From a virus, in IMG/VR virus record IMGVR_UViG_3300042521_000904, positions 1 to 40,236 of that record: a stretch of DNA of 40,236 bases; one strand, 5' to 3'. The notes under the pieces were generated by a model. That model was not told the origin of the DNA, ran no database searches, and worked only from the letters and a program-made list of their open reading frames with translations. Of this stretch, positions 6,793-39,565 are shown piece after piece. The position numbers and the translations under genes are program-made. The stretch's first letter is position 1. Every line of letters starts with the position of its first letter.

Positions 6793-8154
6793 TTACGGTC
6801 TGCGGGTACCTGCAGCAGCAATGGCTGCGCCAGCAGCAACAGCAATAAGGGTTCTACGGGTGCTTACGGGGATGTTGCTACCAAGTGGAACGTAGTTGTC
6901 AAAGCCAGGGCTAAAGATGTTAATTTCCTCTTCAAAGGCTTCACGAACCTCGGCTGGTGCATCCTGCACAGCCTCTACAATGGCTTGTGCCTCTTCTTCG
7001 GAGAGATTGTCTACCTCAATGGCTTCGAACACAGCGGTAGCCTCTTCGGACGAAAGAGATGCCACAACCTCTGCGCTTTGGGCTACAGCCACAGCCAGTT
7101 CTTCGCTAACTTCCATACCTTCCTCAATTGACTCAATTGCGGTTAACAACTCTTCATCGTTGAGTTCCTCAACTGGGATTTCCTCTGTTACCTCATCAGG
7201 TAACACCTCTGTGGGAGTAGTATCATCTGGTAGCACAGGGGTAGTATCATCCACCAGTTCATCAACAAACGGTAGGGTATCTTCCGTCTCAATAGTAGGG
7301 TCTGTGTCTGGAGGTTCCAATGGGATTGTTTCTTCAACTATTTCTTCAGGCTCTTGGATGGGTTCCGTATCTTCTGTGGTTGGCTCTTCTATGGGTTCAG
7401 GCTCAACCACTACAGGTGGTTGCGCTACTGGTGGTGATACGTATTCTGTGGTGGTTGTGGTTTCAGGCACCGTCGAGGTGGTCGTAGTTGTTGTCGTTGT
7501 TGAGGTGGTCGTAGTTGTCGACGTTGTTGATTGTTCTGGCATGGTCGGCTCTGGTGCTAGCGATGTGCTGGTCGGTGCGGAAGAAGTCGTAGTTTCTGGA
7601 AGCGTCGTGGTAACTGGGTCCGTGACAGGCACAGTCGTTGTCGGAACAGTAGTAGTACTGGTCGTTGTCGACGTCGTGGATGTTGTTGTAAATTCCCATA
7701 TTGAAAGATTACCAATCGAAAGATGACCAGGAGCACAACAAGTATCTGTTGAGTATTGACGGAATGTAAAAACATCACCCTCATTTACAGACACAGACTT
7801 AGTTCCTGATGCATTGTTTTGTTGTGTAATCAACGTGTAAACCCCGTTGATTCCATATTGTGGCGGGTCGTAGACCCAGCCATCGGTTGTTTGATACGAC
7901 CAACTAAAGTCAACCGTGTTTACATCAGCCGGGATAGTTGTTTCAATCTTTACCCAATGCGCTGCGCCAGAGCAACCGTTCTGGTCTGGGCCATGCAATG
8001 TAATAACATTGTCTACAACTTCGACTGAGCCTCCACAGGCTGCTGATTGGCTGTAAGTCCAATCTCCCAGAACGTCTGCTTCGGCACTAGATACTGTGCT
8101 GAATAATGCAAGTATTGCTACTGGGATAAATATCAGCCAACGGGTACCAAGCAT
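6793..8154 (-). CDS. secreted Thr-rich, acidic surface-type protein
   Basis: This gene encodes 453 residues from the ATG at 8154, which overlaps the previous stop (TGATG). Residues about 1-27 are a signal peptide (LIFIPVAILALFSTVSSAEA). About 28-150 form a Cys-containing beta-rich domain (DWTYSQSAACGG, DTCCAPGHLSIGNLSIWEF). About 150-230 are a Thr/Ser/Pro mucin-like stretch with runs of Thr. About 230-400 are highly acidic with Glu-rich helices (LSSEEATAVFEAI, LSEEEAQAIVEAV). The C-terminus (STRRTLIAVAAGAAIAAAGTRRP) is one membrane helix ending in basic residues. This is the architecture of a cell-surface protein of Gram-positive bacteria, not a normal virion component. It sits among tail and lysis genes. 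It may alter the host envelope or decorate virions; function unknown. Confidence 0.8.
   Translation of the reverse strand: MLGTRWLIFIPVAILALFSTVSSAEADVLGDWTYSQSAACGGSVEVVDNVITLHGPDQNGCSGAAHWVKIETTIPADVNTVDFSWSYQTTDGWVYDPPQYGINGVYTLITQQNNASGTKSVSVNEGDVFTFRQYSTDTCCAPGHLSIGNLSIWEFTTTSTTSTTTSTTTVPTTTVPVTDPVTTTLPETTTSSAPTSTSLAPEPTMPEQSTTSTTTTTSTTTTTTTTSTVPETTTTTEYVSPPVAQPPVVVEPEPIEEPTTEDTEPIQEPEEIVEETIPLEPPDTDPTIETEDTLPFVDELVDDTTPVLPDDTTPTEVLPDEVTEEIPVEELNDEELLTAIESIEEGMEVSEELAVAVAQSAEVVASLSSEEATAVFEAIEVDNLSEEEAQAIVEAVQDAPAEVREAFEEEINIFSPGFDNYVPLGSNIPVSTRRTLIAVAAGAAIAAAGTRRP
7475..7518. repeat. 17-bp direct repeat in the Thr-rich coding tract
   Basis: GAGGTGGTCGTAGTTGT occurs at 7475-7491 and again at 7502-7518. 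Both copies encode Thr-rich residues on the minus strand. Such codon-level repeats can expand or shrink by slippage, so the length of the mucin-like segment may vary between strains. Confidence 0.7.
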
Positions 8155-8858
8155 CACACAAATACTTTGCGTTTCCAATGAACTTTTTTGTAACCGTTCC
8201 TAAAATATTTTCTTATTTTTGCCAAATCTGTAATGTTGGCATACTCGTCGTGTTGACAAATTTCATGTTCCCATTCTTTTCTTTGAAAAGGGATTATTTG
8301 GAACATTGGTGTTCCAGCAGGAATAACACCATCAAATCCCTTTTTTAAAAGAAACGGCACATTATTTGGAAATGGAAGTTGATAAAAAGTATCTGTTTCT
8401 ACAATTCCTGACATTGTTTCAAAAGGTAAATGAATCTGATTGAGTGGTTGGGTAATAAGTGACGACCAACCTTTAGGTGTTTCTATCCCGTAAGGTTGCT
8501 TCCATAGAAATTCCCATCGGTAATAATCATTGGATATTTCTGACATTGGTTCTCTGTGAGAAATAATTGTTGGTTCATTTGCAAAATAATATTCGCAACT
8601 ACCATCACTATTAACTGATATTTGTATATCACACCAAGTTTCCTGAATGTAGCCAGACACAAAACAATCAGCATACGGCATACATTGTTTTACATTTTCA
8701 ACAGTTTTCCCATCTTTATATCTTTGACCATCCTTGGGAACTGTTGGCATTCCTTTGAACCATTCAGGCATATAAAACCTTGCTGGTTTTGGTGGGGGTA
8801 CGGTTGCGCCAATTAAATCATTGAGTGCATGAAACTTTATTTTTAATTTGTCAGGCAT
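8154..8858 (-). CDS. conserved phage protein of unknown function
   Basis: The 234-residue soluble product has no signal peptide. The N-terminal part has PPPKPARFYMPEWFKGMP, and the C-terminal part GTPMFQIIPFQRKEWEHEIC and a basic end (KKVHWKRKVFV). I associate the FYMPEWFK-type segment with uncharacterised proteins of aquatic phages, but cannot name a family. The many aromatic residues and the PxxxPxFQIIPF segment suggest a compact beta barrel. It follows a zinc-ribbon gene by 8 bp, and its stop overlaps the start of the secreted Thr-rich gene. It could be a structural accessory or a small-molecule-binding enzyme; no catalytic motif is evident. Confidence 0.65.
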   Translation of the reverse strand: MPDKLKIKFHALNDLIGATVPPPKPARFYMPEWFKGMPTVPKDGQRYKDGKTVENVKQCMPYADCFVSGYIQETWCDIQISVNSDGSCEYYFANEPTIISHREPMSEISNDYYRWEFLWKQPYGIETPKGWSSLITQPLNQIHLPFETMSGIVETDTFYQLPFPNNVPFLLKKGFDGVIPAGTPMFQIIPFQRKEWEHEICQHDEYANITDLAKIRKYFRNGYKKVHWKRKVFV

Positions 8859-8866
8859 TTTTCTCC

Positions 8867-9058
8867 CTAGTCTTTGTTAGAAGGAATTCTACCCCACAAA
8901 CCAATTGGACATTCCGCTTTGCGCAACTTTACTTTTACTTTCATAAAACAACCACATTTTTTGCATGTATGGGTTGGTTCAAATAAATGGTCACAATCAA
9001 GACAGATGAGTAGCCGTTCTTTTGGCGTATTGGCTTCCATTTCAATCGATGAATTCAT
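8867..9058 (-). CDS. zinc-ribbon microprotein
   Basis: This gene encodes 63 residues with CLDC, CKKCGC and a following AECPIGLWGR. The CxxC pairs about 13 residues apart make a zinc ribbon; the C-terminal K-A-E-C-P-x-G-x-W block resembles small zinc-ribbon proteins I recall from cyanophages. The ATG at 9058 overlaps the end of the previous gene by 17 bp; an internal ATG at 9040 is possible. It is in the fibre-proximal part of the late arm, so a tail-assembly or regulatory role is possible. Function unknown. Confidence 0.65.
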   Translation of the reverse strand: MNSSIEMEANTPKERLLICLDCDHLFEPTHTCKKCGCFMKVKVKLRKAECPIGLWGRIPSNKD

Positions 9059-9404
9059 CCCCTACTTCAGCAGAAAAATCTACCCACATTTCTAATCCTT
9101 CATCCCATGCAGCCATAGGAGATGGCTTCGGCACTGGTGGTTGCCAGTCATTATTTTCATCAAGAGTCCATAACCTGTAACGTTTTGGTAAAACAAATTC
9201 ATCACGGAGTGGGTCGTATGACCCACCAATGGTCGCATATTGTTTTCGTATATTTCCATTGTAGGAAGTTCTTTTACAAACTTGACCACGAAAATTACCG
9301 TACCAAGTTTCTGGGTCTACACCTTCAATGAGTTCAGTTTCGTCAATCCCAACAATAACTTCAGTAACAATATTATTCTCGTCCAAAAATGCGTAGTGTG
9401 CCAT
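9042..9404 (-). CDS. probable tail-fibre accessory protein
   Basis: The 120-residue product begins MAHYAFLDENNIVTEVIVGI, contains WYGNFRGQVCKRTSYNGNIR, YATIGGSYDPLRDEFV and WTLDENNDWQPPVPKPSP. This pattern (a strand-rich N-terminus, a GxxYDxxRDxF turn and a W-x-PPxPxP segment) recurs in small proteins encoded beside tail fibres in aquatic phages. Its start overlaps the stop of the Gly-rich fibre gene by one base. A fibre assembly or attachment factor is likely; the biochemical role is not known. Confidence 0.6.
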   Translation of the reverse strand: MAHYAFLDENNIVTEVIVGIDETELIEGVDPETWYGNFRGQVCKRTSYNGNIRKQYATIGGSYDPLRDEFVLPKRYRLWTLDENNDWQPPVPKPSPMAAWDEGLEMWVDFSAEVGDEFID

Positions 9405-10336
9405 TATGCAAACTCTATCGTTCCGGTACCAGCAGTAAATCTATAAATCTTATATCCACCAGTTGTTGTTGTTGGGGTCAAACCACCACCGTCTTTAGTC
9501 AAACCAGTAATTGCTGCAAGGTTTGGGAGTGAATCAGGGTAGCGAATAAACACAACACCAGAACCTCCACCATTACAACCATTGGCTTGTGGACTTCCGC
9601 CACCACCGCCACCAAGATTTGTTCCACCCTGACTACATGTAGCGCCAAGTTGTGCAGCAGCACCACCAGAACCACCACCACCGCCCACACCGTAACTACC
9701 ACTATAAGCGCCAGCACCGCCGCCACCACCATAACCTACAGAACTACCCGAAATAGCGACAGATGTTCCACCACCACCACCACCACCAGAAGAACAACTG
9801 CCACCGCCGCCGCCACCACCAGTTCCACCACCGCCGCCTCCAGAATATATACATCCGCCAGAAAAGGATTGATGACCAGTTGAACCGCCGTAGCCCTGAC
9901 CAGTCGTTCCTGCAGCCGCAGCAGTATTCCATGTGCCGCCGCCACAACCACCAGTAGAACCATAACCACCACCACCACCAATAGAAGTAACGGTATGAAA
10001 TACCGAGTTACTTCCATTACCACCTTGGTTTCCACCACCAGCACCAACGGTCACAACATATGAACCAGTTTGAATTGGCAATGCAGTTTCAACCGAAGAA
10101 CCCCCACCGCTTGCCGTAACAGTCGAACGAAGTCCACCGCCACCGCCACCGCCCCAGTAGTCGTATGCTCCACCACCACCACCAGCAAGAACCATGTAGC
10201 CAACTAAATAGTCAGTAACTGAACCACCAGCCCAATAACCAGCAACCTGTGCCGTGTTGCCACGGCGACCACGAGGTTGTAGAGAGCCACCACTGATGGC
10301 TTTGCCACCAGACATAGGACGATGAAAAGTAGGCAC
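9404..10336 (-). CDS. glycine-rich tail fibre / adsorption protein
   Basis: The 310-residue product has long Gly runs. After a basic start (MPTFHRPMSGGKAISGGSLQPRG), GYMVLAGGGGGAYDYWGGGG opens a Gly-rich domain filling most of the protein, with repeated GGGG blocks separated by Ser, Tyr and Thr. The last 60 residues (VVFIRYPDSLPNLAAITG, GGYKIYRFTAGTGTIEFA) form a capping domain typical of Gly-rich phage and bacterial surface proteins. Gly-rich sandwiches are known in receptor-binding tips of some phages, so a host-recognition role is reasonable. It lies upstream of the likely accessory gene at 9042-9404 and downstream of a virion-type beta protein. Confidence 0.75.
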   Translation of the reverse strand: MPTFHRPMSGGKAISGGSLQPRGRRGNTAQVAGYWAGGSVTDYLVGYMVLAGGGGGAYDYWGGGGGGGLRSTVTASGGGSSVETALPIQTGSYVVTVGAGGGNQGGNGSNSVFHTVTSIGGGGGYGSTGGCGGGTWNTAAAAGTTGQGYGGSTGHQSFSGGCIYSGGGGGGTGGGGGGGSCSSGGGGGGGTSVAISGSSVGYGGGGGAGAYSGSYGVGGGGGSGGAAAQLGATCSQGGTNLGGGGGGSPQANGCNGGGSGVVFIRYPDSLPNLAAITGLTKDGGGLTPTTTTGGYKIYRFTAGTGTIEFA

Positions 10337-13726: not shown

Positions 13727-13864
13727 ATGATTGTTACTAACTACTTCGGTGTATTCACCGTCGCTCTAACCGCTTGCCTAATCACAGGTGCCCTGGCTTT
13801 CGCATGGGGCTTTGAGTATGCATTCAAAGTAATCAACCGACACAACAGAAAGAATGGTAAATAA
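13727..13864 (+). CDS. single-pass membrane microprotein
   Basis: This gene encodes 45 residues: MIVTNYFGVFTVALTACLIT continues into GALAFAWGFEYAFKV and a basic tail (INRHNRKNGK). One membrane helix at about residues 7-30, positive-inside C-terminus. An AAAGGAG ribosome-binding site lies six bases before the ATG. It is followed one base later by a coiled-coil microprotein. The pair could act at the host membrane. Function unknown. Confidence 0.65.
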   Translation: MIVTNYFGVFTVALTACLITGALAFAWGFEYAFKVINRHNRKNGK

Positions 13865-15247: not shown

Positions 15248-15490
15248 ATGAAATCAAACATAACTCAAATCATCTACAACAAAAATGCTGGTGTTAATCC
15301 AGACAGCGTAGAAATACTTGTTCACACAAAGTGGACAGACGATTGGGACCCTATTCGTGTGCCAATCAATGTGGAATCAGAAGAAGAAAGAATGTTGCTG
15401 TTCGATTTCGTATGTCGGGCAGTGTGGAAAAAATACAACTTAACAACAACGAATGTAGGTTCAATCATCGCAGAAGAAGGAGCAGTATGA
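15248..15490 (+). CDS. small protein, unknown
   Basis: This gene encodes 80 residues, beginning MKSNITQIIYNKNAGVNPDS, with VEILVHTKWTDDWDPIRVPI and VCRAVWKKYNLTTTNVG. It begins immediately after the preceding stop and its own stop overlaps the next ATG (ATGA). A soluble alpha/beta chain without recognisable motif. The tight packing shows it belongs to the same translational unit as the amidoligase. Confidence 0.65.
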   Translation: MKSNITQIIYNKNAGVNPDSVEILVHTKWTDDWDPIRVPINVESEEERMLLFDFVCRAVWKKYNLTTTNVGSIIAEEGAV

Positions 15491-15666
15491 GCACATTAGA
15501 TTTAGCAATCTTTTATATTGCAATGTTCCTAGCCGGAACAATCATTTTTGTAATAGCAATTGGCTACATGGATAAGAAAAAAGAAAAAGAATGGACGAAA
15601 CTACAAATTCGTCTGAACTCACAAAAACTACACCCAAGTACCAAGATTGGAGATAACAATGCCTAG
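15487..15666 (+). CDS. single-pass membrane microprotein
   Basis: This gene encodes 59 residues: MSTLDLAIFYIAMFLAGTII then FVIAIGYMDKKKEKEWTKLQ and a basic tail. One membrane helix at about residues 5-27, Lys-rich cytoplasmic side. The start overlaps the previous stop (ATGA), and its end overlaps the amidoligase start by 8 bp, with the amidoligase ribosome-binding site inside its last codons. Coupling suggests it may anchor or assist the amidoligase at the membrane, which is inference. Confidence 0.65.
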   Translation: MSTLDLAIFYIAMFLAGTIIFVIAIGYMDKKKEKEWTKLQIRLNSQKLHPSTKIGDNNA

Positions 15667-16678
15667 CGATTACGACGATGAACCAGATTATGACGCACAC
15701 TGTTACGCATGTGAATGCGGACTATTCGACGGTGACTACGAATACCTCGATGACGAACCACATTGCAACGATTGTTACGAAGCAAGAGCAGCAAACGTTG
15801 TCATCCACAACTGGGGATACAAACCTGAACCATCATTTCTTAGTGATGATGGCAAAGCATACAGCATGTATCAACCATTGGGGGGTCAAGTGTACAGAGA
15901 TACACGTGGCCGAAATGTGTCAAGAAGTCAACTATATATGGGTTTTGAGCAAGAAGTAGAACACCTCGGATACGACAGAGAAGAAGTAGCACAACTAGTT
16001 CTGGACGTAGCAAACAAACAGAGACAAACTGTGTACATCAAAGATGATGCATCACTTGATAGCGGATTCGAAATTGTTTCTCATCCGGGAACACTTCAGT
16101 TCTTTACAAAGTATTTCGATTGGTCGGCAATATCTCAATTGTCTGAACTGAACTGTAAGTCATGGAATAGAAAAACATGCGGACTACATATTCATATGTC
16201 ACGCAATGCTTTCAAAGATGAGAAACATTTGTTCAAGTTTCTCGTGTTGATATACAAAAATCCTAAGAGCATGATTCAATTCGCAGGGCGAAACTCACAC
16301 TTCGCAAAGTTCGATATTGATGCGTTCCTCAATGGATACGACGGATGGGGTGACAAAGCAAAACGAAGCACTTCATTCATGAAGATGGCAAAAAGGGAAT
16401 CAAGTAATGACGACAGGTATTGTGCTGTAAATCTAAGAAACTCACAAACAATTGAGTTGCGTTTCTTTAGACCATCATTACTGCCTTCAACAACGCTTGC
16501 AGCATTACAACTATGTGACGCAATGTTCCACTACACGGAAGCAATGACAACACCAGAAGTAATGTCCAAAAAGGCTTTGGAATTTGCACAATTCGCAAAG
16601 TGGGTAGAACAACAAAATGATAAATACAAAATTCTTGATGAAAGAATCAAGACACGAGTAAGTATTGGAGAAAGATAA
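15659..16678 (+). CDS. amidoligase-like protein with N-terminal zinc cluster
   Basis: This gene encodes 339 residues from the ATG at 15659 (TTGGAG six bases upstream; a TTG at 15647 is inside that site). Residues 15-39 hold C15, C18, C36 and C39 in a LIM/zinc-ribbon-like cluster. G95-F-E97-Q-E99, S132-L-D-S-G-F-E138 and C174-G-L-H177-I-H179-M match the glutamine-synthetase-like amidoligase motifs; VNLRNSQTIELRFFRP further on fits the last one. Known amidoligases use ATP to join an amine to a carboxylate. The next gene is a class II glutamine amidotransferase, a pairing reported for this family in phages and bacteria. Substrate unknown; wall peptides or a protein tag are possible. Confidence 0.85.
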   Translation: MPSDYDDEPDYDAHCYACECGLFDGDYEYLDDEPHCNDCYEARAANVVIHNWGYKPEPSFLSDDGKAYSMYQPLGGQVYRDTRGRNVSRSQLYMGFEQEVEHLGYDREEVAQLVLDVANKQRQTVYIKDDASLDSGFEIVSHPGTLQFFTKYFDWSAISQLSELNCKSWNRKTCGLHIHMSRNAFKDEKHLFKFLVLIYKNPKSMIQFAGRNSHFAKFDIDAFLNGYDGWGDKAKRSTSFMKMAKRESSNDDRYCAVNLRNSQTIELRFFRPSLLPSTTLAALQLCDAMFHYTEAMTTPEVMSKKALEFAQFAKWVEQQNDKYKILDERIKTRVSIGER

Positions 16679-17601
16679 TGTGTTTACTTACATTCCTACC
16701 TGAGTCTGTTTGGCCAAATGTAGAAAGGTTTGAGACAGCAGCAATCGGAAATCCTGACGGATTTGGGTTTGCAATCTTAGACAAAAACAAAATACACAAA
16801 GCACACAGCATGAACTTCCAGGAAACAATGAACAAGTTCTTGGACATGCGGACAAAACACACAGGACCAGCATTGTTCCACTTTAGGTGGGCGACACATG
16901 GTTCAGAAACACTAGACAACTGTCATCCATTCCTGCTTGGCAACGACCCAAACACTGTAGTTGCACACAACGGAATATTGCCAGTTTCTATTCTCAAGGG
17001 TGATGACAGGTCAGACACCAAGGTGTTCGCAGAGGACATCATGCCAGCAGTTGGTGGCATTACAAGTCTTGACAATGATGAGTACCACAATAAGTTATCA
17101 CAATGGGCTAAAGGAAACAAACTCGTGTTCCTAACCAACAATGATGACGCATTGTATGACTTCTACATTGTCAACGAGCATCTTGGTCACTGGGATGAAA
17201 ACATGTGGTGGTCAAACTATTCATACGAAGCAGTTGCAACAACGTACAAGTATCCAGCATATGGTGGTTACTCAAGAATGTATGGTGGTGGATGGGATGA
17301 TGATTGGGATTACGGGTATCACAAAACAGAAAACCTGTACGAACAAGAAACACTCGTCGAAGATGAACTTCAAGAGTGTTGGGAAAAGATGGATATATAC
17401 CTAACACGAGTAAGTGACAAAGAACAATTGCTCGAATGCTACACATGTGCACACAGTGAAGTAATTGCAGTAGATGATATAAAAACTCATTGTCCAGAAT
17501 GCATGGCGTGTTTGTTCTGTGGGGCACACCATGACTGCGGATGCTGGGACGCAATATACGAAGCAAATGAATCATTCCATTTAGAAACAACAATCTACTA
17601 A
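16678..17601 (+). CDS. class II glutamine amidotransferase-like protein with zinc tail
   Basis: The 307-residue product starts MCLLTFLP, so removal of Met exposes Cys2, the catalytic nucleophile of class II (Ntn) amidotransferases. N25-P-D-G-F-G30, FHFRWATHG (about residues 63-71), NCHPF and VVAHNGILPV are the family's active-site strands. The last 80 residues add Cys pairs (CYTC, CPEC, CLFC, CGCWD), which look like a zinc-binding module. TAATG joins it to the amidoligase, so the two are co-translated and probably act together: glutamine or glutamyl transfer feeding amide-bond formation. The residues around WWSNYSYEAVATTYKYP form a Tyr/Gly-rich insert. Confidence 0.85.
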   Translation: MCLLTFLPESVWPNVERFETAAIGNPDGFGFAILDKNKIHKAHSMNFQETMNKFLDMRTKHTGPALFHFRWATHGSETLDNCHPFLLGNDPNTVVAHNGILPVSILKGDDRSDTKVFAEDIMPAVGGITSLDNDEYHNKLSQWAKGNKLVFLTNNDDALYDFYIVNEHLGHWDENMWWSNYSYEAVATTYKYPAYGGYSRMYGGGWDDDWDYGYHKTENLYEQETLVEDELQECWEKMDIYLTRVSDKEQLLECYTCAHSEVIAVDDIKTHCPECMACLFCGAHHDCGCWDAIYEANESFHLETTIY

Positions 17602-17874: not shown

Positions 17875-18344
17875 CAACAATCAAATTAATTCCACAAGAA
17901 ATGGAGTTCAATGTCTCACTAGATAGTGCGTCATTGCCCTCGCTATTCAATCAATCACTAGAAACAACAATCGATGCAAGAATCGAAGCAACACTCAAAA
18001 ACACTGAGTTCACACGCAAGGTGCGTGACTGGTTGCTAGAAAGCATCGACACAAGTGACATCGCAAGAGACATGACTAGGTACATTGATTACGAAGAAAT
18101 ATCAGAACGAATCTGTGACAGAACAACATTGTTCGAAGAAGACAATCTGCATAGAGTAATCATGGAAGATGCAAGATTCGGAAACAAACTACGTTCAGCA
18201 ATGGAATCATTGGTGACTTCAGCAATGATTAACAGCGCAGTAGAAGAAAAAATGCAAGAATACCTAGCAGCACTCGCTGTGGATGCAGCAGATAGAGCAG
18301 TAAAGATTATCGCAAACCGGCTAGACAAGGGAGCAGATGAATAA
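17871..18344 (+). CDS. helical acidic protein, unknown
   Basis: The 157-residue product begins MTTIKLIPQEMEFNVSLDSA and is nearly all helical afterwards (TTIDARIEATLKNTEFTRKV, DWLLESIDTSDIARDMTRYI, ALAVDAADRAVKIIANRLDK). Its layout suggests a coiled or bundled structure. The start overlaps the previous stop by 4 bp; the end overlaps the WhiB start by 8 bp. No function can be assigned. Confidence 0.6.
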   Translation: MTTIKLIPQEMEFNVSLDSASLPSLFNQSLETTIDARIEATLKNTEFTRKVRDWLLESIDTSDIARDMTRYIDYEEISERICDRTTLFEEDNLHRVIMEDARFGNKLRSAMESLVTSAMINSAVEEKMQEYLAALAVDAADRAVKIIANRLDKGADE

Positions 18345-18603
18345 GACTTTCAGCATCTATAAACCAACATTCATGGAGAAAGGAAAGTGTGTTGGCTTTC
18401 CAACACGCTGGTGGTTTCCAGAGTTTAGGGACAAGAAAGAACAAACAAGAAATACACAAAAGGCAAAAGAATTATGCCTGCAATGTGAAGTAAGACAGCA
18501 GTGCATCTCATATGCAAAAGAAACACGTTCATCCGGCATATGGGGTGCAATGACATTCGATAGAGGACTACCAAACAAAAGGGGAAAAAGAAATGTCAAG
18601 TAA
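18337..18603 (+). CDS. WhiB-family Fe-S regulator
   Basis: This gene encodes 88 residues with the four conserved Cys: C18, C47, C50 and C56 (CLQCEVRQQC), followed by YAKETRSSGIWGAMTFDRG, the G-I/V-W-G turn of WhiB proteins, and a basic tail (PNKRGKRNVK). WhiB proteins bind a [4Fe-4S] cluster, pair with host sigma factor and are confined to Actinobacteria and their phages, so this fixes the host group. In mycobacteriophage TM4 a phage WhiB blocks host division and superinfection; a similar role is possible here. It is embedded by overlaps in the string after the amidoligase. Confidence 0.93.
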   Translation: MNKTFSIYKPTFMEKGKCVGFPTRWWFPEFRDKKEQTRNTQKAKELCLQCEVRQQCISYAKETRSSGIWGAMTFDRGLPNKRGKRNVK

Positions 18604-20984: not shown

Positions 20985-22003
20985 TGCGCTTATCTGTCGA
21001 TGACATATCGGCAGGCTGGGAGATGGTGGGGCGGCAACCAGTCGCTCCACCTCCCGAGTATCGAATGTATTCGCCACTCTCAGACGCTGCTGACTCATTT
21101 GTAAGATGGGCACAATCACCACAAGAAAGAATCCATTTAGGAATACCACAGATAGACGCAGAATTGCGTGGTATCGCACCAGGCGAAATAGCCATGATGC
21201 TCGGATTCGCTCATGGTGGCAAAACACTTGTCTTACTACACGCACTTCGTAAGAACAGAGACAAACATATTGCCCTGTTCATTCCAGATGAACCAAAACA
21301 ACTGGTCTTAACAAAACTAACCTGCATACATCACCGCATAGACGCACGTGAATTAGAAGCAAGAGTAGCCGCAGACGACCAAGATGCAATCAATCTGCTA
21401 CGACAAACAGCAGAAGAAGACTTTCCTAATCTCGCAGTATTTGACCAGCCGTTAACGGCATCAGACATGGAGCGAGCATACGGAGAACTATGTGACGTCT
21501 GGGGTCAAGTACCAGAACTCGTAGTTGTTGACTATCTCGACCTTGTGGAAGCAGGAGAAACTGTTCCTGATAAGGCAACATTCCTCAAGGGATTCGGTCG
21601 TAGGCATGACATTCCCATGTTGGTATTACACCAGACATCACGCACCGCAGGTGCGGATGGCAAGAAGATGACAATGAGTTCAGGCTCCTACGGAGGCGAA
21701 CAACAAGCAACTTCAATCATTGGTGTGCGCAGAAAAAAATATCAAATAGCACATGAGATAAACGAACTTGTAGAAAAGTTGGACCGTTCGCATTCAGAAA
21801 GGTCTCAAGACAGGCTTGAGTATCTCAGGATGGAAGCAAGAATACATGAGTACACAGTTACGGTCAGTTTGTTGAAAAACAAAAGACCAGCAGGGCAATT
21901 AGTAGACGACATAGATTTCGAATTAGACGCAACAACAGGACGACTTACAGAACTCAATGGAGAACTACCAAAGCAATATCATCAAGGAAAGTTGTATGAA
22001 TGA
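20984..22003 (+). CDS. DnaB/RecA-like replicative helicase
   Basis: The 339-residue product has Walker A at about 74-81 (GFAHGGKT), ALFIPDE just after, Walker B VVVDYLDLVE, and VLHQTSR before a flexible loop, the motif order of the RecA core in DnaB-type helicases. The usual DnaB N-terminal domain is missing, so the protein is core-only like several phage helicases. A short N-terminal segment (SVDDISAGWEMVGRQ) may contact the primase. Its end overlaps the primase start by 8 bp. It would unwind DNA ahead of replication. Confidence 0.85.
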   Translation: MRLSVDDISAGWEMVGRQPVAPPPEYRMYSPLSDAADSFVRWAQSPQERIHLGIPQIDAELRGIAPGEIAMMLGFAHGGKTLVLLHALRKNRDKHIALFIPDEPKQLVLTKLTCIHHRIDARELEARVAADDQDAINLLRQTAEEDFPNLAVFDQPLTASDMERAYGELCDVWGQVPELVVVDYLDLVEAGETVPDKATFLKGFGRRHDIPMLVLHQTSRTAGADGKKMTMSSGSYGGEQQATSIIGVRRKKYQIAHEINELVEKLDRSHSERSQDRLEYLRMEARIHEYTVTVSLLKNKRPAGQLVDDIDFELDATTGRLTELNGELPKQYHQGKLYE

Positions 22004-22901
22004 TGCAATAGAAACATTCATGTTGCTATTCGGTGGCAGAACAGATGCCTACGGCACATGGGAAGGTGGCTCCAACAAGTCACAAGTAACCTATGAAACA
22101 TTCGCCAAACATTTGTATGGTGAAGAATTAATTGGAATATACCCACTAACAGATGGTTCGTCCGTTAGATGGGGTTGTTCTGATATAGATGTTGACGATA
22201 TTGACTCTGCACGTAATCTGCAAACAGCATTAAAAATCAAAAGCATAAACTCATTCGTGGAGAAAACAAGGCGTGGATACCACGTTTGGGTTTTTGCTAA
22301 TGACTGGGTGCCAGCGGCAGTCATGCGCAGGGCATTCCTGTCCGCACATGAAGCAGTCAATCTTGTAGCCAAAGAAGTAAATCCAAAACAAGAAGAAGCA
22401 ACAGGGCTTGGCAACTATGTCAGACTTCCGTATCCGGGTGGAATAGATAACATCCCAGAGAATAGATACATGTTGCTCGACAAAGATGACTCACCCATGC
22501 CACTCAAAGACTTCCTGCATCAAGCGTATGAAACACGCACAAACATCAATCTGTTGTCACCATTGGCCGAAAAACACAAGCCAAGAAGCAAAATGCATTT
22601 CAACAATCTCACAATCTCTCCAAGCGTCAACACATCGCTGGATAAAGTCAATGGCTACATTGCGACAATCTGGCGTAACGGCCCGATGGAAGGCAACGAC
22701 AGAAGCAACACACTTATCAGAATGTGCCACTACATGTTTGAGTATGGCACTCCAATTAATGATGCCTATACTATTCTTGTGGACGCAGATAAAAGATGGG
22801 GCAAGTTCCACCTCAGACCAGATGCTGTGGTACATTTAACAAAAATAATCGAAGATTGCTACGGTAAAGACCACACTTACAAGGAAGATTTCAACCCATG
22901 A
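21996..22901 (+). CDS. archaeo-eukaryotic-type primase (possible primase-polymerase)
   Basis: This gene encodes 301 residues from the ATG at 21996 (AAGGAAAG upstream; overlaps helicase stop). D63-x-D65 in WGCSDIDVDD supplies two metal ligands; G94-Y-H96-V-W is the s-x-H motif; GLGNYVRLPYPGG is the family's last strand. These mark an AEP-fold primase related to the TOTE conflict-system and PrimPol group. The C-terminal 90 residues (SNTLIRMCHYMFEYG, KIIEDCYGKDHTYKED) look like a helical PriCT-type module. Because no DNA polymerase gene is seen, the protein could prime and also extend; that is inference. Confidence 0.85.
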   Translation: MNDAIETFMLLFGGRTDAYGTWEGGSNKSQVTYETFAKHLYGEELIGIYPLTDGSSVRWGCSDIDVDDIDSARNLQTALKIKSINSFVEKTRRGYHVWVFANDWVPAAVMRRAFLSAHEAVNLVAKEVNPKQEEATGLGNYVRLPYPGGIDNIPENRYMLLDKDDSPMPLKDFLHQAYETRTNINLLSPLAEKHKPRSKMHFNNLTISPSVNTSLDKVNGYIATIWRNGPMEGNDRSNTLIRMCHYMFEYGTPINDAYTILVDADKRWGKFHLRPDAVVHLTKIIEDCYGKDHTYKEDFNP

Positions 22902-26178: not shown

Positions 26179-29100
26179 TTAGTTGTATTTTCGGATGGGT
26201 GAACCAAGATAAGACAGCCAAGCATTAAGTTGTGACATCGGATTGTCGTTCAATAACAATCTGTCTGCCTGTCCAGCAGTTGGGACTGCACCTCTCAACG
26301 CATTCAATAGTCTGTCTTGAGTTCCTGTAAATTCTTTGCCAGTAAAAATGTCTTTGCCAATAATCTGTTCAATCGGTATTGACAGAGCAGGTGTAACTTT
26401 ATTCAACATCCTCATCGGATTGGTCAAATCATCAAGTTCTTGTGGAATTCTAGTAAATCCGAAGTCTGGCATTGCATACAATCCAGTTCCAAATGGAATC
26501 CTAAAGCCACCCATGCTCTTAACAAATGGTGGTAGTGGAGTTTCGCTGTCTTCAAAGTTGCGCTTAAAAGAGTTGTAAATCAAATATGGTTTTGGATTCA
26601 ACCACATGTTTGTTATTTGTAACGTGAGGTTCTTTGAATAGAAAGTCCAGAATGGGATTATCTGTTTCATTACTTTGTCAAGACTGGACAAGTCTTCGTA
26701 GTCAAAGAAGAATCGCTTGACTCTTGCCTGGGCGGAGCCGGCATCGGCTCCTTTCATTGCTGAGTCAAAAGCAAGAACAAAACGGCTGTAGTTATCGGAT
26801 GCCTGTCCAATTGCATAGTTCTTTCTAGTGAGCCAGTTGTCAATCAGTCTGCTAGCACCAACTGCATCTTTGAAGACTTCGGTATAAATACCACCACCAC
26901 CACCGAGTGCACCTTCTCGTGCTATCTCTGCAACCCTGGACAAATCGGGTGGGAGTGTCTTAACAAAATCTTCCCACAAGACTCCTGCTCGTTTTGCTTT
27001 AATCCAATTGAAATAAAGTTTGGAGCCACCAATCATGTTGTCAATGTCTGCGTCAGCAAGAACCAACTGGACGGCGTTGGCTAATCCATTTCGAACGTGG
27101 AAGCCAGGTGACAATACAGCAAATGCTTTGAAGAACTTTGTGTATGGACCAATGTAGTAAGCCATCTTGCGAACAAATGCTGGGTCAGATATTCGAGAAG
27201 CAGCATCAAACATTGCTTTCATTTCTGGTGAAGCATAAAGATTTGGGTAGTACTGCCCAAGTTGTTGGTACATGATTGTCGAATCTTTGATTCGCTTAAT
27301 GCTCTGTCCGGCTGTCATAACAGCCTCTTCAGGAACACCATCAACAACCTGACCATTTGCCAGTCTTACTTTTCCGTTAGGAAGAAGTGTGCCACCACCA
27401 TCAATCATTCTCTGAACGCCAAGAAGCATTTGTCTTTCAACTTCTACGTCTGACATCGAACTTACAGTTCTCCAGAATTCTATTTCAGAATCAATCTGTG
27501 CTTTGACAACAGAGTCAATTGCTTCCCATTCTTTCTTTGCACCCATTTCATCCAAGACATTCTTAGCATCTTCAAAAAACTTCATCGCTTCCTGGTGCTT
27601 GTTAAACATATCACCAGAACCTGCAGAGTATTCCAGAACCGTTCCACGGTTCATGGTTGCATTTAGGTTGGCATTCTGCACCAATGCAGATACAGCAGAC
27701 AAATTGTCAAGAGTTCTATTGACCGATTCTGCATCCACAACTTGCCCAACTGCAGATGCTTGGTCATATGCGGCCTGCAGGTTATCCAACAAAGCCCGTG
27801 TGTCGTCAAGTTCCTTCTTAGCAAGAATCTCTGGCTGTCGAGCAATCTCCGCTAACTGATTACCAAGATTGGTTAAAGCATCGTCACTCATAACTGTGGC
27901 GGTAGCACCAACTTCAATTGGCACATCACCCCTAACAATGTTTGGTGACTTATCAAATACTGGCTTTAAGACAGTAAACAGTGGGTCGTAGGAATCCGGT
28001 ATTTGCTGCTGTGGGTCAAACAAGGCATCGGTAGACCTCGTATTGGCCGCAGAGAGCCCTTCCCTGGTCCTTGCGGCCTCCCTAGAGCCACGAACCCTTC
28101 CAAGGGCTGTGGCGCTCTCCTGACGCATCTCAGAGGTAACTGGCTGGTCCAGTTCAGGAGCCAGAGCACGTAGACGTGCCTGGCGTTCCCTAATGAGTTT
28201 CGTAAAGGGCTTGCTAAAGGGATTGACGCCCTTGCTTCCCTTCAATTGATAAAAGACATCAATTTCTTCCTGCAACTGAGCAACACCCTTTTGCTCTAAT
28301 GGTTGGTCAATTAACTCTTGGATTCGAGCACGAGCACGAGCATTTTGTTTGAGTTTTATTATTTCTTTTTTGTCAAATTTGGGGAGTTCACGACCAACTA
28401 CATAACTAACGTTTTCAACATCTCCAGCAGATTCAACACTTACGTCATCGATAATTTGCTCTGGAGTAAATCGAACAACACCTGGTGCACCAAGTATTTT
28501 TTTCCTAAATTTTATTAATTGACTAGAATCATAAGGTGTCCATTCGGCCACATCAGATGCAATATTGTCAATCATCTTTCCAGATGAGTCAATAGAGTTT
28601 GCAATCATGTCAAGAGTCTTTTGTGGATTCTTTCTTGCATGTACTTCAGCAAGCATTCTTTCTTCGTAACCACGCATCTTGCCAAGAAACTTTCCAGAAG
28701 ATGTCTTGTTAAATGCTTTCTGAATATTTGCTCGTCGTGTATAAACATCAGCAGCCTTGGCACCAGCATCGGGTTGATTACGCAATGTGTATTCAACAAA
28801 CTTTTTCAAAAGCAAATCATCAGTGAGTTCGTCGCCGTATGTACCAAACTCTTCCGGTGCATAAAGTTGTGCATTGTCCCTAATTGATTTAATCAACTGA
28901 CCAAATCGACCAGAACTCTGCATACCACTATCAATATTCTTTCCATCAATAATGCTTAACCAAAAATCTTTAGTAACTTCAATCTGTGAGCCGGACTTTG
29001 TTCTGACAACAATCTTATCCATGTCAAGGTCGGCAAGAATGTAAAGAATATTTGCATAATTTTCAACAGACTTGTGAACTGGGTAAACGTCATTCGATTT

Positions 29101-32100
29101 CAAAGCATCATAAATAGCCTGGACTTCTTCAAACTCCTTAGATGTAGGAACAGCATCAGGAACAACAGAGCGTGTTACATTTTGATTCTTCAAGAAAACA
29201 TCAGTTGCATCAGTAGTGCCAGCAGGTGAAGCAAGAAAATCATTTGGCAAAATATTCAACAGGTCATTGGATTCTTTGACAGACCTATTTATAACAAACA
29301 TGTCATTGGCAATGTTTTGAATATCAATAGTCATAGGAAAAAGAACTTCAAGTTTTGTTTTTTCAAACTGATTAGCAAACAATCTTTCTAGTTGACCATT
29401 TAATTCCGGTCCAACAAAATTGTTGTCTAATAAATCTATTTGTTGAATAATAAAATCAATATCAATAACATTAATGTTTTTCTCCAAAACACCCAAGTTT
29501 GTATTCAGGTATTTGGTTCTATGTTTTTCAAGAAACAACCTCAACGTGTCCAAAGAGCCACCAGTATTAACAATGCTGTCAAAGTTCTTGAAAAGAAAAT
29601 CTTGCAATTCTTTAATGTTTTCATCAGCATTCAAATATTGAACCTGTATTTTGTTGTATTCAATTTTCTGTATTACAAGTTGTTTTTGCAAATCGTCAAT
29701 CATTCGCCTCTTACGAATTCTGAATTTATTAAATGCTTTTCTTTTTGCTGGAGACAAAGAATTAAGTTGAGTTCTGTACTTGGAAGAACGTTCTACGGTA
29801 TTAACCATCTCACGTGATTTAATGGCTTGTTTTTCAATATCATCAAATAAATCATTTGTAACATTATTTTCACGAGCAACACGACGGAAAAGACCAAGTG
29901 GTCCAGTATCGGATGTCCTACCAAAATTGCTCGAAGTTAATTCAGCAACCCTTTTGGTATCACCAGCCTTAACAGCCTCAACCAAATACGGCCTAACCGT
30001 GCGCTGAATAATCTCATCGATTACATCATCTCCAAGAACAACACCTTGTGGACGTAGCAACTCATCCCACTTAATGTAGGTTGCGAAAGCCTGCTCTTGA
30101 ATAAGCATGTCCTGCAAAGGATATGCATTACCGGACCTAGCAGCAATAAGTGCATTAGACCACTCGGAATATCTAGTAAATCCAGAAGTAGCCAACTCAG
30201 TATCAGCAAGAGAACTGCTTGCCATTCTTCTTATTCCTTTTTCAGAATCAGAAAGAAACTGAGACAATCCATTAGGGCTAGAAGAAACAAGTTTTTCGTT
30301 TTCAACAATCTTTGCAAAAATATAATGCCCAACGACATTTATATCTTGTTCATCAACAACTTCACCAAGAGAAAGACGAGAAAAAATTTCAACCGCTTTT
30401 TCATCTGTCATCTGAGAAACAAGTACTTTTAAGTCTGGGTCTGTCCAGTTGTACTTATATGGATTAGATGGAGTCCAACCATCAGCCAATTGTCTTTGAA
30501 CAAGTTGCTTGCCGGGTATCGAATCAACAGCCTTTGCAAATACATCATAAAGAGTTCCAGAACCAAGTTCTTTGTGTGAACCAATAGTCGGAAGAATGTT
30601 GTGAATATCATTCATGTTGTCAAGCGTTCGCTCAAACATTCCAACTCTGTACAAATAGTTATTTAGTTCTTTGTAGTAATCAGAAAGTTGCTCAGGAGTG
30701 TATGTCTGTATGTCTTTGGCTCTAGCCTTAAGCGATTCAAAAACCTTTGATATTGCTTCACGTTGATTTGCAATCAACTGAAAGTTAGAAACACCATCCT
30801 TGTTTTCCAACAAAGAATCAACCTGACGAAACTTGGATAGGTAGTCACCTTCGAGTTTGTCGATGTCCCTAACAAGTATTTCTATTGCTGTACGAAACTC
30901 TTCCAAGTCAGCAGCATCCATGCTGCCGGCTCTCATTACATTGAGTGCATCAAACAACGAACCATGCAACTGTTCTAGTGCATCGTTAACACTTGCCATA
31001 CCAGTCTGCATGGACCTAACATGATTGCGCAAAGCAATCTGCATTGCGTTCAAAGCCTCAGAAGGTGCATCCACAAGACGACTCTTAGCCCATGTAGGAG
31101 ATATGGATGCAATGGTCTCCGACCTAATCAGCAAGTCTGGGCTACGTTCAGTAATGTACTGAACCATGTCATAAAAAGCCATTTGCTCAGACCAAGCACG
31201 AATGTATTTTGTCATTACTAAATTGAAATCTGTTTCAAAAATATCGTAAGCAACAGACTGGGCATCACCAACTGCATTTCTTGCAAGATTGTTAAGAGTC
31301 TGAATGTTCAGGTCCGACTCTTTAAGAACGTGACCAAACCAGGTATCACCTTCACCAAGTTCTCGGGATTGGAAAACGTTTTGACGGCCAGAAGTGTTAA
31401 CACCCTTGCCTAGCATTTGGTCAACAGCCTCATCACCATCTTTTAATCGTGCACGAGCAGTTGCTTCACTTTCCATTCGTGGAAAGTAATTCTTTTGATA
31501 ACCAATTGGCTGACCACCAACCTCGACAGACCTGTCACTAACCTGCTTTTGCAAATCATCCAACATCGCTCTTACTTCATTTGCTTTTGGAACATCAGCA
31601 GGGTCTACAACAATTGACGGATTAGCAACAATGTCATTCTCAAGCAATACATGCATTGGGGTTGTTGTGGAGGAAGTCCTATCCATAACAGGAGAGACAG
31701 TTGTCTCCACCCGTTCCACGTTCTTTACTGCAGACAATCTCTTGTAGTCGTCTGCATCCACAATTGTCATTGCGGTTCGTGCTTCTTCTGGAGTTAACGA
31801 GCCTTCAGCGAGTGCCACACGGAAGTCCCTAATCTTGTTAGGACCGAATCTGTCAATCGCACCAACACCCTTTGGTGTTGATGCAACACGCAATGGTCTA
31901 AATGTTTTAGAATTAGACAAAGCAAGTCTTGCATCAGTAACTACCTTTTCGGTAATACCACCAAGAACACTCGAACCAGGAACCTTTACACGACTACCAA
32001 AGTAGTAAACGCCAGGGCCCCGAACACCCATGTCCTTTGCTAGATAATCAGGAAGTGCACTCTTGCCACGAGCAACAACGTCACGAACAATCTCATCTAT

Positions 32101-32844
32101 TTCCCTTTTGGAAATGTTTGCAACTCCATCATCAACAAGATTTTCTAATCTTGTTCTTGCAAATGAACCAAGTTTTTGTCGTCCTTCTCTTCCGACAACA
32201 GTTCTCCCAAGAAGACTTCTTGCAGCAACTCTTACCGATTGGTCTGGAAGTGTTTCTTTTATTACAATTCTTGCAAGTGTTTCTGGTGAAAGTTTTGCTA
32301 ATTCTTTCGCAGAAAGAGTAACAACAGATTTTGCAGCAACGGTTCCACCAAGCGTTGCGTAAGTAAGTGGGTCTAACGCAACGTCACCAATGAACCCAAG
32401 TATCCTTCCACCCCAACCTTTCATTGGAAAGGCTGTACCAAATCCATAATTAACATCTCTTGTCTGTCCAATGAAGTCACCAAAAGATGCCTTTGTAGAT
32501 GAGTCAGAATCAAGTATGTCTGCTAGTTCACGAACTCCAGATATAACAGCACGTCGTGGTGTGTCAAGAATTTGGATTGGAACCAAAAGACTTTTAATCA
32601 CACTTGGTGAAAGTGTGTCTTTTGTTAAACCCTTTATTTCATTTGATGAAACATAAGTTTTAACTTTAGGAGTTACAACAGCAGGTTTCTTTGAATTCAA
32701 CTTGTCTAGTAGTTCAGCAGTCTGCCAAGACTCACGGATGAGTGGCTTTCCAACTGGAGGCAACTTGGAAACAGATTTTGGTTTCTTGGATTCCGTAATC
32801 CGTTTTAGAGCATCAAGAACAACAGATTCGTCTGCACTAGCCAT
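26179..32844 (-). CDS. giant internal virion / ejection protein (2221 residues)
   Basis: This single frame of 2221 codons fills one sixth of the window. It is mostly helical, with coiled-coil stretches (about residues 1000-1200) and a hydrophobic Gly-rich segment near residues 135-175 (GWGGRILGFIGDVALDPLTY). Around residue 2040, FFFDYEDLSSLDKVMKQIIP then FWTFYSKNLTLQITNMWLNP resembles a domain shared by large phage ejection and polyvalent proteins. No transglycosylase motif is seen. In podoviruses such proteins leave the head before DNA and build a channel across the envelope. Its start overlaps the 319-residue gene by 8 bp. Confidence 0.8.
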   Translation of the reverse strand: MASADESVVLDALKRITESKKPKSVSKLPPVGKPLIRESWQTAELLDKLNSKKPAVVTPKVKTYVSSNEIKGLTKDTLSPSVIKSLLVPIQILDTPRRAVISGVRELADILDSDSSTKASFGDFIGQTRDVNYGFGTAFPMKGWGGRILGFIGDVALDPLTYATLGGTVAAKSVVTLSAKELAKLSPETLARIVIKETLPDQSVRVAARSLLGRTVVGREGRQKLGSFARTRLENLVDDGVANISKREIDEIVRDVVARGKSALPDYLAKDMGVRGPGVYYFGSRVKVPGSSVLGGITEKVVTDARLALSNSKTFRPLRVASTPKGVGAIDRFGPNKIRDFRVALAEGSLTPEEARTAMTIVDADDYKRLSAVKNVERVETTVSPVMDRTSSTTTPMHVLLENDIVANPSIVVDPADVPKANEVRAMLDDLQKQVSDRSVEVGGQPIGYQKNYFPRMESEATARARLKDGDEAVDQMLGKGVNTSGRQNVFQSRELGEGDTWFGHVLKESDLNIQTLNNLARNAVGDAQSVAYDIFETDFNLVMTKYIRAWSEQMAFYDMVQYITERSPDLLIRSETIASISPTWAKSRLVDAPSEALNAMQIALRNHVRSMQTGMASVNDALEQLHGSLFDALNVMRAGSMDAADLEEFRTAIEILVRDIDKLEGDYLSKFRQVDSLLENKDGVSNFQLIANQREAISKVFESLKARAKDIQTYTPEQLSDYYKELNNYLYRVGMFERTLDNMNDIHNILPTIGSHKELGSGTLYDVFAKAVDSIPGKQLVQRQLADGWTPSNPYKYNWTDPDLKVLVSQMTDEKAVEIFSRLSLGEVVDEQDINVVGHYIFAKIVENEKLVSSSPNGLSQFLSDSEKGIRRMASSSLADTELATSGFTRYSEWSNALIAARSGNAYPLQDMLIQEQAFATYIKWDELLRPQGVVLGDDVIDEIIQRTVRPYLVEAVKAGDTKRVAELTSSNFGRTSDTGPLGLFRRVARENNVTNDLFDDIEKQAIKSREMVNTVERSSKYRTQLNSLSPAKRKAFNKFRIRKRRMIDDLQKQLVIQKIEYNKIQVQYLNADENIKELQDFLFKNFDSIVNTGGSLDTLRLFLEKHRTKYLNTNLGVLEKNINVIDIDFIIQQIDLLDNNFVGPELNGQLERLFANQFEKTKLEVLFPMTIDIQNIANDMFVINRSVKESNDLLNILPNDFLASPAGTTDATDVFLKNQNVTRSVVPDAVPTSKEFEEVQAIYDALKSNDVYPVHKSVENYANILYILADLDMDKIVVRTKSGSQIEVTKDFWLSIIDGKNIDSGMQSSGRFGQLIKSIRDNAQLYAPEEFGTYGDELTDDLLLKKFVEYTLRNQPDAGAKAADVYTRRANIQKAFNKTSSGKFLGKMRGYEERMLAEVHARKNPQKTLDMIANSIDSSGKMIDNIASDVAEWTPYDSSQLIKFRKKILGAPGVVRFTPEQIIDDVSVESAGDVENVSYVVGRELPKFDKKEIIKLKQNARARARIQELIDQPLEQKGVAQLQEEIDVFYQLKGSKGVNPFSKPFTKLIRERQARLRALAPELDQPVTSEMRQESATALGRVRGSREAARTREGLSAANTRSTDALFDPQQQIPDSYDPLFTVLKPVFDKSPNIVRGDVPIEVGATATVMSDDALTNLGNQLAEIARQPEILAKKELDDTRALLDNLQAAYDQASAVGQVVDAESVNRTLDNLSAVSALVQNANLNATMNRGTVLEYSAGSGDMFNKHQEAMKFFEDAKNVLDEMGAKKEWEAIDSVVKAQIDSEIEFWRTVSSMSDVEVERQMLLGVQRMIDGGGTLLPNGKVRLANGQVVDGVPEEAVMTAGQSIKRIKDSTIMYQQLGQYYPNLYASPEMKAMFDAASRISDPAFVRKMAYYIGPYTKFFKAFAVLSPGFHVRNGLANAVQLVLADADIDNMIGGSKLYFNWIKAKRAGVLWEDFVKTLPPDLSRVAEIAREGALGGGGGIYTEVFKDAVGASRLIDNWLTRKNYAIGQASDNYSRFVLAFDSAMKGADAGSAQARVKRFFFDYEDLSSLDKVMKQIIPFWTFYSKNLTLQITNMWLNPKPYLIYNSFKRNFEDSETPLPPFVKSMGGFRIPFGTGLYAMPDFGFTRIPQELDDLTNPMRMLNKVTPALSIPIEQIIGKDIFTGKEFTGTQDRLLNALRGAVPTAGQADRLLLNDNPMSQLNAWLSYLGSPIRKYN

Positions 32845-38918: not shown

Positions 38919-39055
38919 TAGTACATTCCTTTGCTAGATGCTTTCATTTTTTTGGATGATTTACTTGACTTGCGCTTTGGGTAAGTAGAAGTTGTTTTTC
39001 CAGCCTTTGGAGTTGCACTCGCATGGCTGTCAAGAATTCGATACTTTACTGGCAT
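38918..39055 (-). CDS. Lys/Ser-rich basic microprotein
   Basis: This gene encodes 45 residues: MPVKYRILDSHASATPKAGK then TTSTYPKRKSSKSSKKMKAS and SKGMY. AAGGAG lies four bases before the ATG at 39055, directly after the terminator, so it can be translated from read-through or from its own promoter. One-base overlap with the next gene. A partial second version is at 1-64. Probably nucleic-acid binding; function unknown. Confidence 0.65.
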   Translation of the reverse strand: MPVKYRILDSHASATPKAGKTTSTYPKRKSSKSSKKMKASSKGMY

Positions 39056-39072
39056 AATTCTCCTTTTATAAG

Positions 39073-39104
39073 AAAAGGGGGATGGAGTGTGGCCTCCACC
39101 CCCC
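39073..39104 (-). terminator. rho-independent terminator after the decoration gene (right copy)
   Basis: Minus-strand arm 39104-39094 pairs with 39087-39077 around GCCACA, followed by TTTT (39076-39073). Compared with the copy at 79-110, one arm differs by two bases, and only the place of a single G-T wobble moves, so pairing is kept. Confidence 0.85.
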
Positions 39105-39116
39105 GATTCAGATTAC

Positions 39117-39539
39117 TTATGCTCGGTAAATGCTTACCGTGTTTGCTGCAGTGAATACCGCAACATACGTTGCCGATGATGCTGCTGCAACCGAGAAGGT
39201 TGCTGCCGCACCAACAAGTGTTACACCCGTTGCACCAGCAGTTACCACGATTGGGTGGGTTGCTGCTGCCACGTTAACTACGGTGAATTGGAAACTTGAA
39301 CCAACACCTTCGTCTGTGAACGCTGCACCAAGTTCCGCACCAGTTGGTGTGGTCAAGGTACGGCTTGCCGTTGGGGTCATTGTGTATAGTGTCCGTGCTG
39401 CACCAGCAAGGTTTGCTGCTGTTTGTACGGTGGCTGCATCAGTAGCGGCAACAACAGTTACCTTTTCTTCTTTTGCTGCCCATGCTTCAAGACGCTTACG
39501 TGTTACCGCACCGTCTGTGCTGTTTGCTAATAGTGGCAT
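39117..39539 (-). CDS. probable head decoration/stabilisation protein (right copy)
   Basis: The 140-residue product is a diverged version of the one at 123-536. The first 40 residues are almost the same (MPLLANSTDGAVTRKRLEAW), then differences accumulate (ASRTLTTPTG for GRALTTPTG, VAAATHPIVV for LAASTHAITL). A three-residue insertion lies near AATFSVAAAS. The same terminator and ribosome-binding site flank it. The variation affects mostly exposed-type residues in a beta-rich chain, as expected of a capsid surface protein. Function inferred from position. Confidence 0.7.
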   Translation of the reverse strand: MPLLANSTDGAVTRKRLEAWAAKEEKVTVVAATDAATVQTAANLAGAARTLYTMTPTASRTLTTPTGAELGAAFTDEGVGSSFQFTVVNVAAATHPIVVTAGATGVTLVGAAATFSVAAASSATYVAVFTAANTVSIYRA

Positions 39540-39565
39540 TTCATTCTCCTTTTAGGTTAGTTAAC

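Follow-up and report, generated by a model that had tools for sequence, protein, structure and literature searches.

Pairs of an amidoligase and a class II glutamine amidotransferase are common in phages, and the phage papers cited here name no established substrate for them. Passages in PMC10580990, PMC11318856, and PMC5498523 that cite Iyer 2009 connect the pairing with cell wall modification and superinfection exclusion. In phages phiEco32, LUZ24, tf, and RIO-1, as in the virus analyzed here, the amidoligase gene lies directly upstream of the class II amidotransferase gene in the early region, where the two belong to a "peptidoglycan modification cassette" (PMC5498523, PMC3890496). The RIO-1/phiEco32/LUZ24 cassette is described in the former paper, and UFV-P2 carries the cassette genes according to the latter. 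The cassettes of LUZ24 and phiEco32 add genes annotated as a COOH-NH2 ligase, an ATP-grasp (RimK-like) enzyme, and a gamma-glutamyl cyclotransferase.

Locus layout and linkage of the two enzymes

We analyzed such a pair in a viral record of 40,236 bases, hereafter called the window, in which ORF reading places three overlapping plus-strand genes within positions 15487-17601. The first gene (15487..15666, +) encodes a one-helix membrane microprotein of 59 aa (MSTLDLAIFYIAMFLAGTIIFVIAIGYMDKKKEKEW...LHPSTKIGDNNA), recognized from its ORF, positional homologues, and dN/dS. The second (15659..16678, +) encodes a 339-aa amidoligase of the Amidoligase_2 type with a predicted glutamine-synthetase fold, as assigned by PF12224, phrog_16683/22302, AlphaFold2, and Foldseek. 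The third (16678..17601, +) encodes a 307-aa class II glutamine amidotransferase, an Ntn hydrolase with Cys2, as assigned by PF13230, phrog_25883, AlphaFold2, and Foldseek. The ATG of the amidoligase at 15659 lies 8 nt inside the microprotein ORF, and its ribosome-binding site, read from the sequence as GGAG six bases before the ATG (15649..15652, +), falls within the microprotein gene, just as an earlier note on this DNA had proposed. The amidoligase stop codon and the amidotransferase ATG overlap in TAATG (16676-16680). Every enzyme motif, the Cys2, the cysteine clusters, and the gene overlaps listed in that note were found in the window sequence.

The portal and adaptor proteins of the window phage are SU10-like, a further likeness to the phiEco32/LUZ24 group, and the phage also yields a Terminase_6N match. 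Because replication genes, which encode a DnaB-like helicase, an archaeo-eukaryotic primase, a PD-(D/E)XK nuclease, and RusA, lie downstream of the pair, the latter falls in a presumed early region, as in LUZ24. A WhiB-like protein (18337-18603), which recurs downstream of the pair in 52 loci, suggests an actinobacterial host. We also observed an AEP-TOTE match (an archaeo-eukaryotic-type primase domain; 21957-22901) adjoining the DnaB-like helicase, and a minus-strand gene for a 2,221-aa protein (26179-32844) that lies amid the virion genes and occupies one sixth of the genome. The two contig ends (4-1239 and ~38995-40236), which hold a capsid-like gene and its neighbor, align with each other at 89.5% identity across 1,249 columns. 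The record probably extends beyond one genome length, or was joined, in either case with sequence of a second strain; the other explanation is a duplicated head-gene block.

Two collection scans yielded about 160 viral loci, and 101 distinct amidoligases were counted for linkage. An amidotransferase gene was located directly downstream on the same strand for 99 of the 101, a count that is biased by the inclusion of loci found via the amidotransferase; among loci found via the amidoligase alone, 63 of 64 had the amidotransferase, and the remaining one is a contig end. This same contig end, with 27 bases left after the amidoligase, is one of the two exceptions in the full set. The other is Clostridioides phage AR1086-1 (L008), which has an amidoligase of another type without an adjacent amidotransferase. 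Spacing was measurable in 90 loci, and in 55 of these the two genes have a slight overlap or a gap of no more than 15 nt. The same order, amidoligase then amidotransferase, is found in phiEco32, LUZ24, Marvin, and Clostridia chromosomes. The linkage of the two enzymes on which the earlier note had built its proposal is thus conserved in related phages.

Active sites and predicted folds

The amidoligase of the window contains the motifs G95-F-E97-Q-E99, S132-L-D-S-G136-F-E138, and C174-G-L-H177-I-H179-M. By itself the protein scored 20.7 bits against PF12224 (Amidoligase_2), compared to a curated cut-off of 22, and it scored 22.1 bits together with its in-frame neighbors; all 60 amidoligase relatives matched the family with E <= 0.1 (best, 1.7e-9). 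Within the catalytic core (15941..16462, +), the GxExE, SxDxGxE, and GxHxH motifs and distal N/E/R residues were conserved in 60/60 relatives, with E97, E99, K128, D130, S132, E138, H177, H179, R211, R253, N258, E266, and R268 being invariant. The AlphaFold2 model of the amidoligase (pLDDT 87, pTM 0.84) was searched against the PDB with Foldseek, and the top 12 matches all belonged to the glutamine-synthetase-type/carboxylate-amine ligase superfamily. These matches include YbdK, GlnA (glutamine synthetase), Dop, GmaS, and glutamate-cysteine ligase. Their TM-scores were low (0.3-0.4), as expected for distant superfamily members. The amidoligase assignment in the earlier note thus stands, as the predicted ATP-binding fold is present and the active-site Glu residues are kept. 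In eight loci (L017, L018, L026, L027, L035, L040, L139, and L142), we observed a second amidoligase paralogue about 1 kb upstream of the pair; this shorter protein (~205-271 aa) has no cysteine module and retains GxExE-like and HxH motifs.

Sequence, predicted fold, and catalytic residues also agree in identifying the amidotransferase. Its motifs in the window are M-Cys2, R70-W-A-T-H-G, N81-C-H-P, H97-N98-G99, and D113. Although the window protein alone scored 20.6 bits against GATase_4 (PF13230), for which the curated cut-off is 23, the family was matched by 68/68 amidotransferase relatives. C2, R70, T73, H74, G75, N98, G99, and D113 were invariant in all 68, so that Cys2, which is exposed after Met removal, is kept throughout. 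The AlphaFold2 model (pLDDT 85) was matched best by the GlmS glutaminase domain (E 4e-8), also by GFAT and PurF, and more weakly by EgtC (1.5e-4), predicting an Ntn glutaminase fold of the GlmS/EgtC type.

The invariance of the catalytic residues in 60 ligases and 68 amidotransferases indicates that both active sites are under strong selection. Most cysteines of the clusters on the two proteins are invariant in these relatives as well, and together with the catalytic residues this excludes chance. Between the window and its relative L002, dN/dS was ~0.13 for the amidoligase and ~0.09 for the amidotransferase, values to be read with dS close to saturation.

Glutamine-dependent amidation is the simplest account of a pair that is linked almost without exception and whose glutamine site and glutamine-synthetase-type active site are both complete, and we give slightly better than even chances to the view that the two enzymes form one two-subunit glutamine-dependent carboxylate-amidating complex. 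Cys2 of the amidotransferase would split glutamine and release ammonia beside the amidoligase, which, with its glutamine-synthetase fold and ATP, would activate a carboxylate as an acyl phosphate and join the ammonia to it, forming a carboxamide. The reaction would resemble those that asparagine synthetase and MurT-GatD (a Mur ligase with a class I amidotransferase) carry out with other protein folds. As targets, stem peptides of peptidoglycan or carboxylates on host proteins are the likeliest, and we infer that their amidation would bring a biological benefit. Counting against a complex are the match to EgtC, a gamma-glutamyl amidohydrolase that supplies no ammonia to a partner, the AR1086-1 ligase that stands without an adjacent amidotransferase, and the finding of no fused ligase-amidotransferase protein among the loci examined.

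The main rival to an amidating complex is a protect-and-release pair resembling EgtA and EgtC of ergothioneine synthesis, given the gamma-glutamyl ligases among the closest folds of the ligase and the weaker match of the amidotransferase to EgtC. In such a pair, the ligase would join an amine to the side-chain carboxylate of glutamate or of another acid, and the Ntn enzyme would later take the gamma-glutamyl group off again. YbdK, GmaS, and plant glutamate-cysteine ligase, which are among the closest ligase folds, are all gamma-glutamyl ligases, and the presence of EgtC among the amidotransferase matches points the same way. However, sequence and fold scores favor GlmS-type glutaminases over EgtC, and the window proteins scanned included no other biosynthetic enzyme that would produce or consume such an intermediate. 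We therefore regard a gamma-glutamyl pair as unlikely.

Membership of the pair in a pathway of DNA-base hypermodification is a far weaker contender. Predictions said to have been made by Iyer in 2013 place amidoligases in phage base-modification pathways, but neither a scan of 30 window proteins nor, as judged by eye, the recurrent neighbor clusters revealed a partner for such a pathway, and we consider this role extremely improbable.

Cysteine modules and the adjacent microprotein

Both enzymes carry conserved paired CxxC ligands outside their active sites. In the amidoligase, these make up an N-terminal CxxC...CxxC module (C15, C18, C36, and C39; 15701..15775, +), in which C15 and C36 occur in all 60 relatives compared and C18 and C39 in at least 90% of them. 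This module is the most variable part, and more distant viral amidoligases have 4-10 CxxC motifs ahead of the catalytic core. The amidotransferase ends in an eight-cysteine tail (C254, 257, 272, 275, 278, 281, 287, and 289; 17437..17544, +). All eight cysteines are invariant in 68/68 relatives, and the tail is ordered in the AlphaFold2 model, with blocks near pLDDT 90. Judging from this conservation, the cysteine modules noticed earlier on both enzymes are real and selected.

The cysteine patterns lead us to infer that the modules of both enzymes bind zinc or another metal. A profile of the amidoligase module matched LIM chains in the PDB weakly (E 0.12-1), and a Pfam LIM match, also weak (E 0.047), was obtained for 2 of the 60 amidoligases; the module is a probable LIM-like zinc site, and the amidotransferase tail probably comprises two metal sites. 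A literature search for an amidoligase with a zinc ribbon returned no title or abstract on such a feature. The conserved modules look like docking or target-recognition handles. In the amidating complex that we favor, they would most likely be zinc-binding parts that dock the subunits, grip the target, or both.

Target recognition by these modules would also suit a protein or peptide modifier, in which the ligase forms isopeptide bonds in the manner of Pup ligase, the cysteine modules select the target, and the amidotransferase has an activity of its own, such as deamidation. The depupylase Dop is among the top structural matches of the ligase, and LIM-like modules vary in number, as would be expected of target-recognition parts. 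However, two genes that are hardly ever apart and a glutamine site with all its residues point to a shared reaction, and the neighbors of the pair in relatives included no recognizable small tag protein, which leaves such a modifier quite improbable.

Returning to amidation, we can envisage that the pairs with cysteine modules constitute a distinct amidation family borne by mobile elements, from phages of actinobacteria and other hosts to mobile regions of chromosomes. Exchangeable LIM-like modules would then select the target, so that a single two-subunit enzyme would act on host proteins or wall precursors that differ from host to host. We offer this extension as speculative and, taken as a whole, unlikely.

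The earlier note had coupled both enzymes to the one-helix membrane protein as a three-gene unit. The microprotein is a real coding gene under selection, as judged from a dN/dS of ~0.16 at 56% identity between the window and L002, with synonymous sites near saturation. Positional equivalents, some with little sequence similarity, overlap or abut the ligase start in L002, L003, L004, L010, and L011. In the tree of 60 ligases, the six viruses bearing a microprotein form one clade (support 95/71), and microprotein presence requires one change on this tree, compared to a mean of 5.8 after shuffling. More than 90 other loci keep the enzyme pair without an adjacent microprotein. Of the order suggested for relatives, only the two-enzyme unit is therefore general: with an adjacent microprotein in 6 of 101 distinct loci, all from one clade, we rejected the three-gene unit as a general arrangement, and a membrane partner does not hold up as a general component. 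Since the microprotein adjoins the pair in a single clade only, membrane recruitment is not core to the mechanism. The microprotein is a local neighbor, perhaps a clade-specific accessory, and probably not a core part.

These results bear directly on the idea of a membrane-recruited three-component system, in which the microprotein would anchor the enzymes, wall precursors would be amidated, and superinfection would be blocked. The microprotein is selected, overlaps the amidoligase start, and occurs in six related viruses, and passages in PMC5498523 and PMC10580990 treat wall modification as a standing hypothesis. Nevertheless, its restriction to a single clade speaks against such a system, as do the different one-helix microproteins that lie 0.3-1.6 kb off in many relatives, like ordinary small early genes. 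We consider it very improbable.

Among these more distant microproteins, we observed a one-helix family of the form MNWFGLFT...RNHPTN at 0.3-1.6 kb upstream in L020, L021, L026, L028, L030, L031, L034, L035, L108, L109, L116, and others; the window ORF at 13727-13864 resembles it without the HPT tail. We considered and rejected the idea that an HP[STA] tail motif unites the one-helix microproteins in a single family: about 20 loci carry such an ORF 0.3-1.6 kb upstream, many are of the N(W/Y)FG type instead, and the background of HP[STA]-tail ORFs amounted to five minus-strand matches.

Relation to described systems

Phages have been reported to carry the pair since at least 2009, as the passages citing Iyer 2009 indicate, and the novelty that the earlier note ascribed to it was overstated. 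A wall-peptide substrate and a block on superinfection or host defence, which the note suggested, likewise go back to that literature as hypotheses. Like the window pair, MurT-GatD and asparagine-synthetase-type amidation would combine an ATP-activated carboxylate with glutamine-derived ammonia, a likeness that we propose, with PMC3267633 as the source for MurT-GatD. MurT-GatD differs in its folds, and the window pair is not a member of that system. Unlike the window proteins, the amidoligases of LUZ24 and phiEco32 have no cysteine module, and their amidotransferases are longer. No Pfam match to a COOH-NH2 ligase, an ATP-grasp enzyme, or a gamma-glutamyl cyclotransferase was found among 30 window proteins, a scan that covered neither small ORFs nor some virion proteins. 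The full peptidoglycan modification cassette was therefore rejected for the window, which we do not file under the LUZ24/phiEco32 type because these extra cassette genes were not found.

Chromosomal pairs in Clostridia (Ruminococcus, Oscillospiraceae) resemble the window in having a CxxC-module ligase followed by a class II amidotransferase. They differ in that the ligase typically has 6-8 CxxC motifs and the amidotransferase has no eight-cysteine tail; the amidoligase module is thus the wider feature, and the tail marks a narrower branch. Around the chromosomal pairs, the genes recognized were those of recombinases and probable relaxases, not of a pathway. Two further chromosomal pairs were observed, in L199 (Allokutzneria; 7432-9434), where the amidotransferase has a Cys-rich tail of the viral kind, and in L201 (3261-6609), where the pair adjoins a serine-recombinase-like gene.

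By sequence comparison, the closest cultured relatives of the window pair are mycobacteriophages of the Marvin group. Marvin gp105/gp106 and 18 related mycobacteriophage records have the same gene order, with ~30% (ligase) and 38% (amidotransferase) identity to the window. Like the window pair, they combine N-terminal cysteine modules in the ligase with a Cys-rich tail in the amidotransferase and belong to the same PHROG families. Marvin differs from the window in having no overlapping one-helix microprotein (gp104 is a 140-aa protein of another type), in a 79-nt intergenic gap, and in a longer C-terminal part of the ligase. What is already known is thus the pairing and the idea of wall modification and superinfection exclusion, whereas the conserved cysteine modules mark a little-described branch. 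This branch is compact, with two nearly always linked genes in place of the larger LUZ24/phiEco32 cassette, and its presence in mycobacteriophages that grow on M. smegmatis makes the old question of the substrate directly testable.
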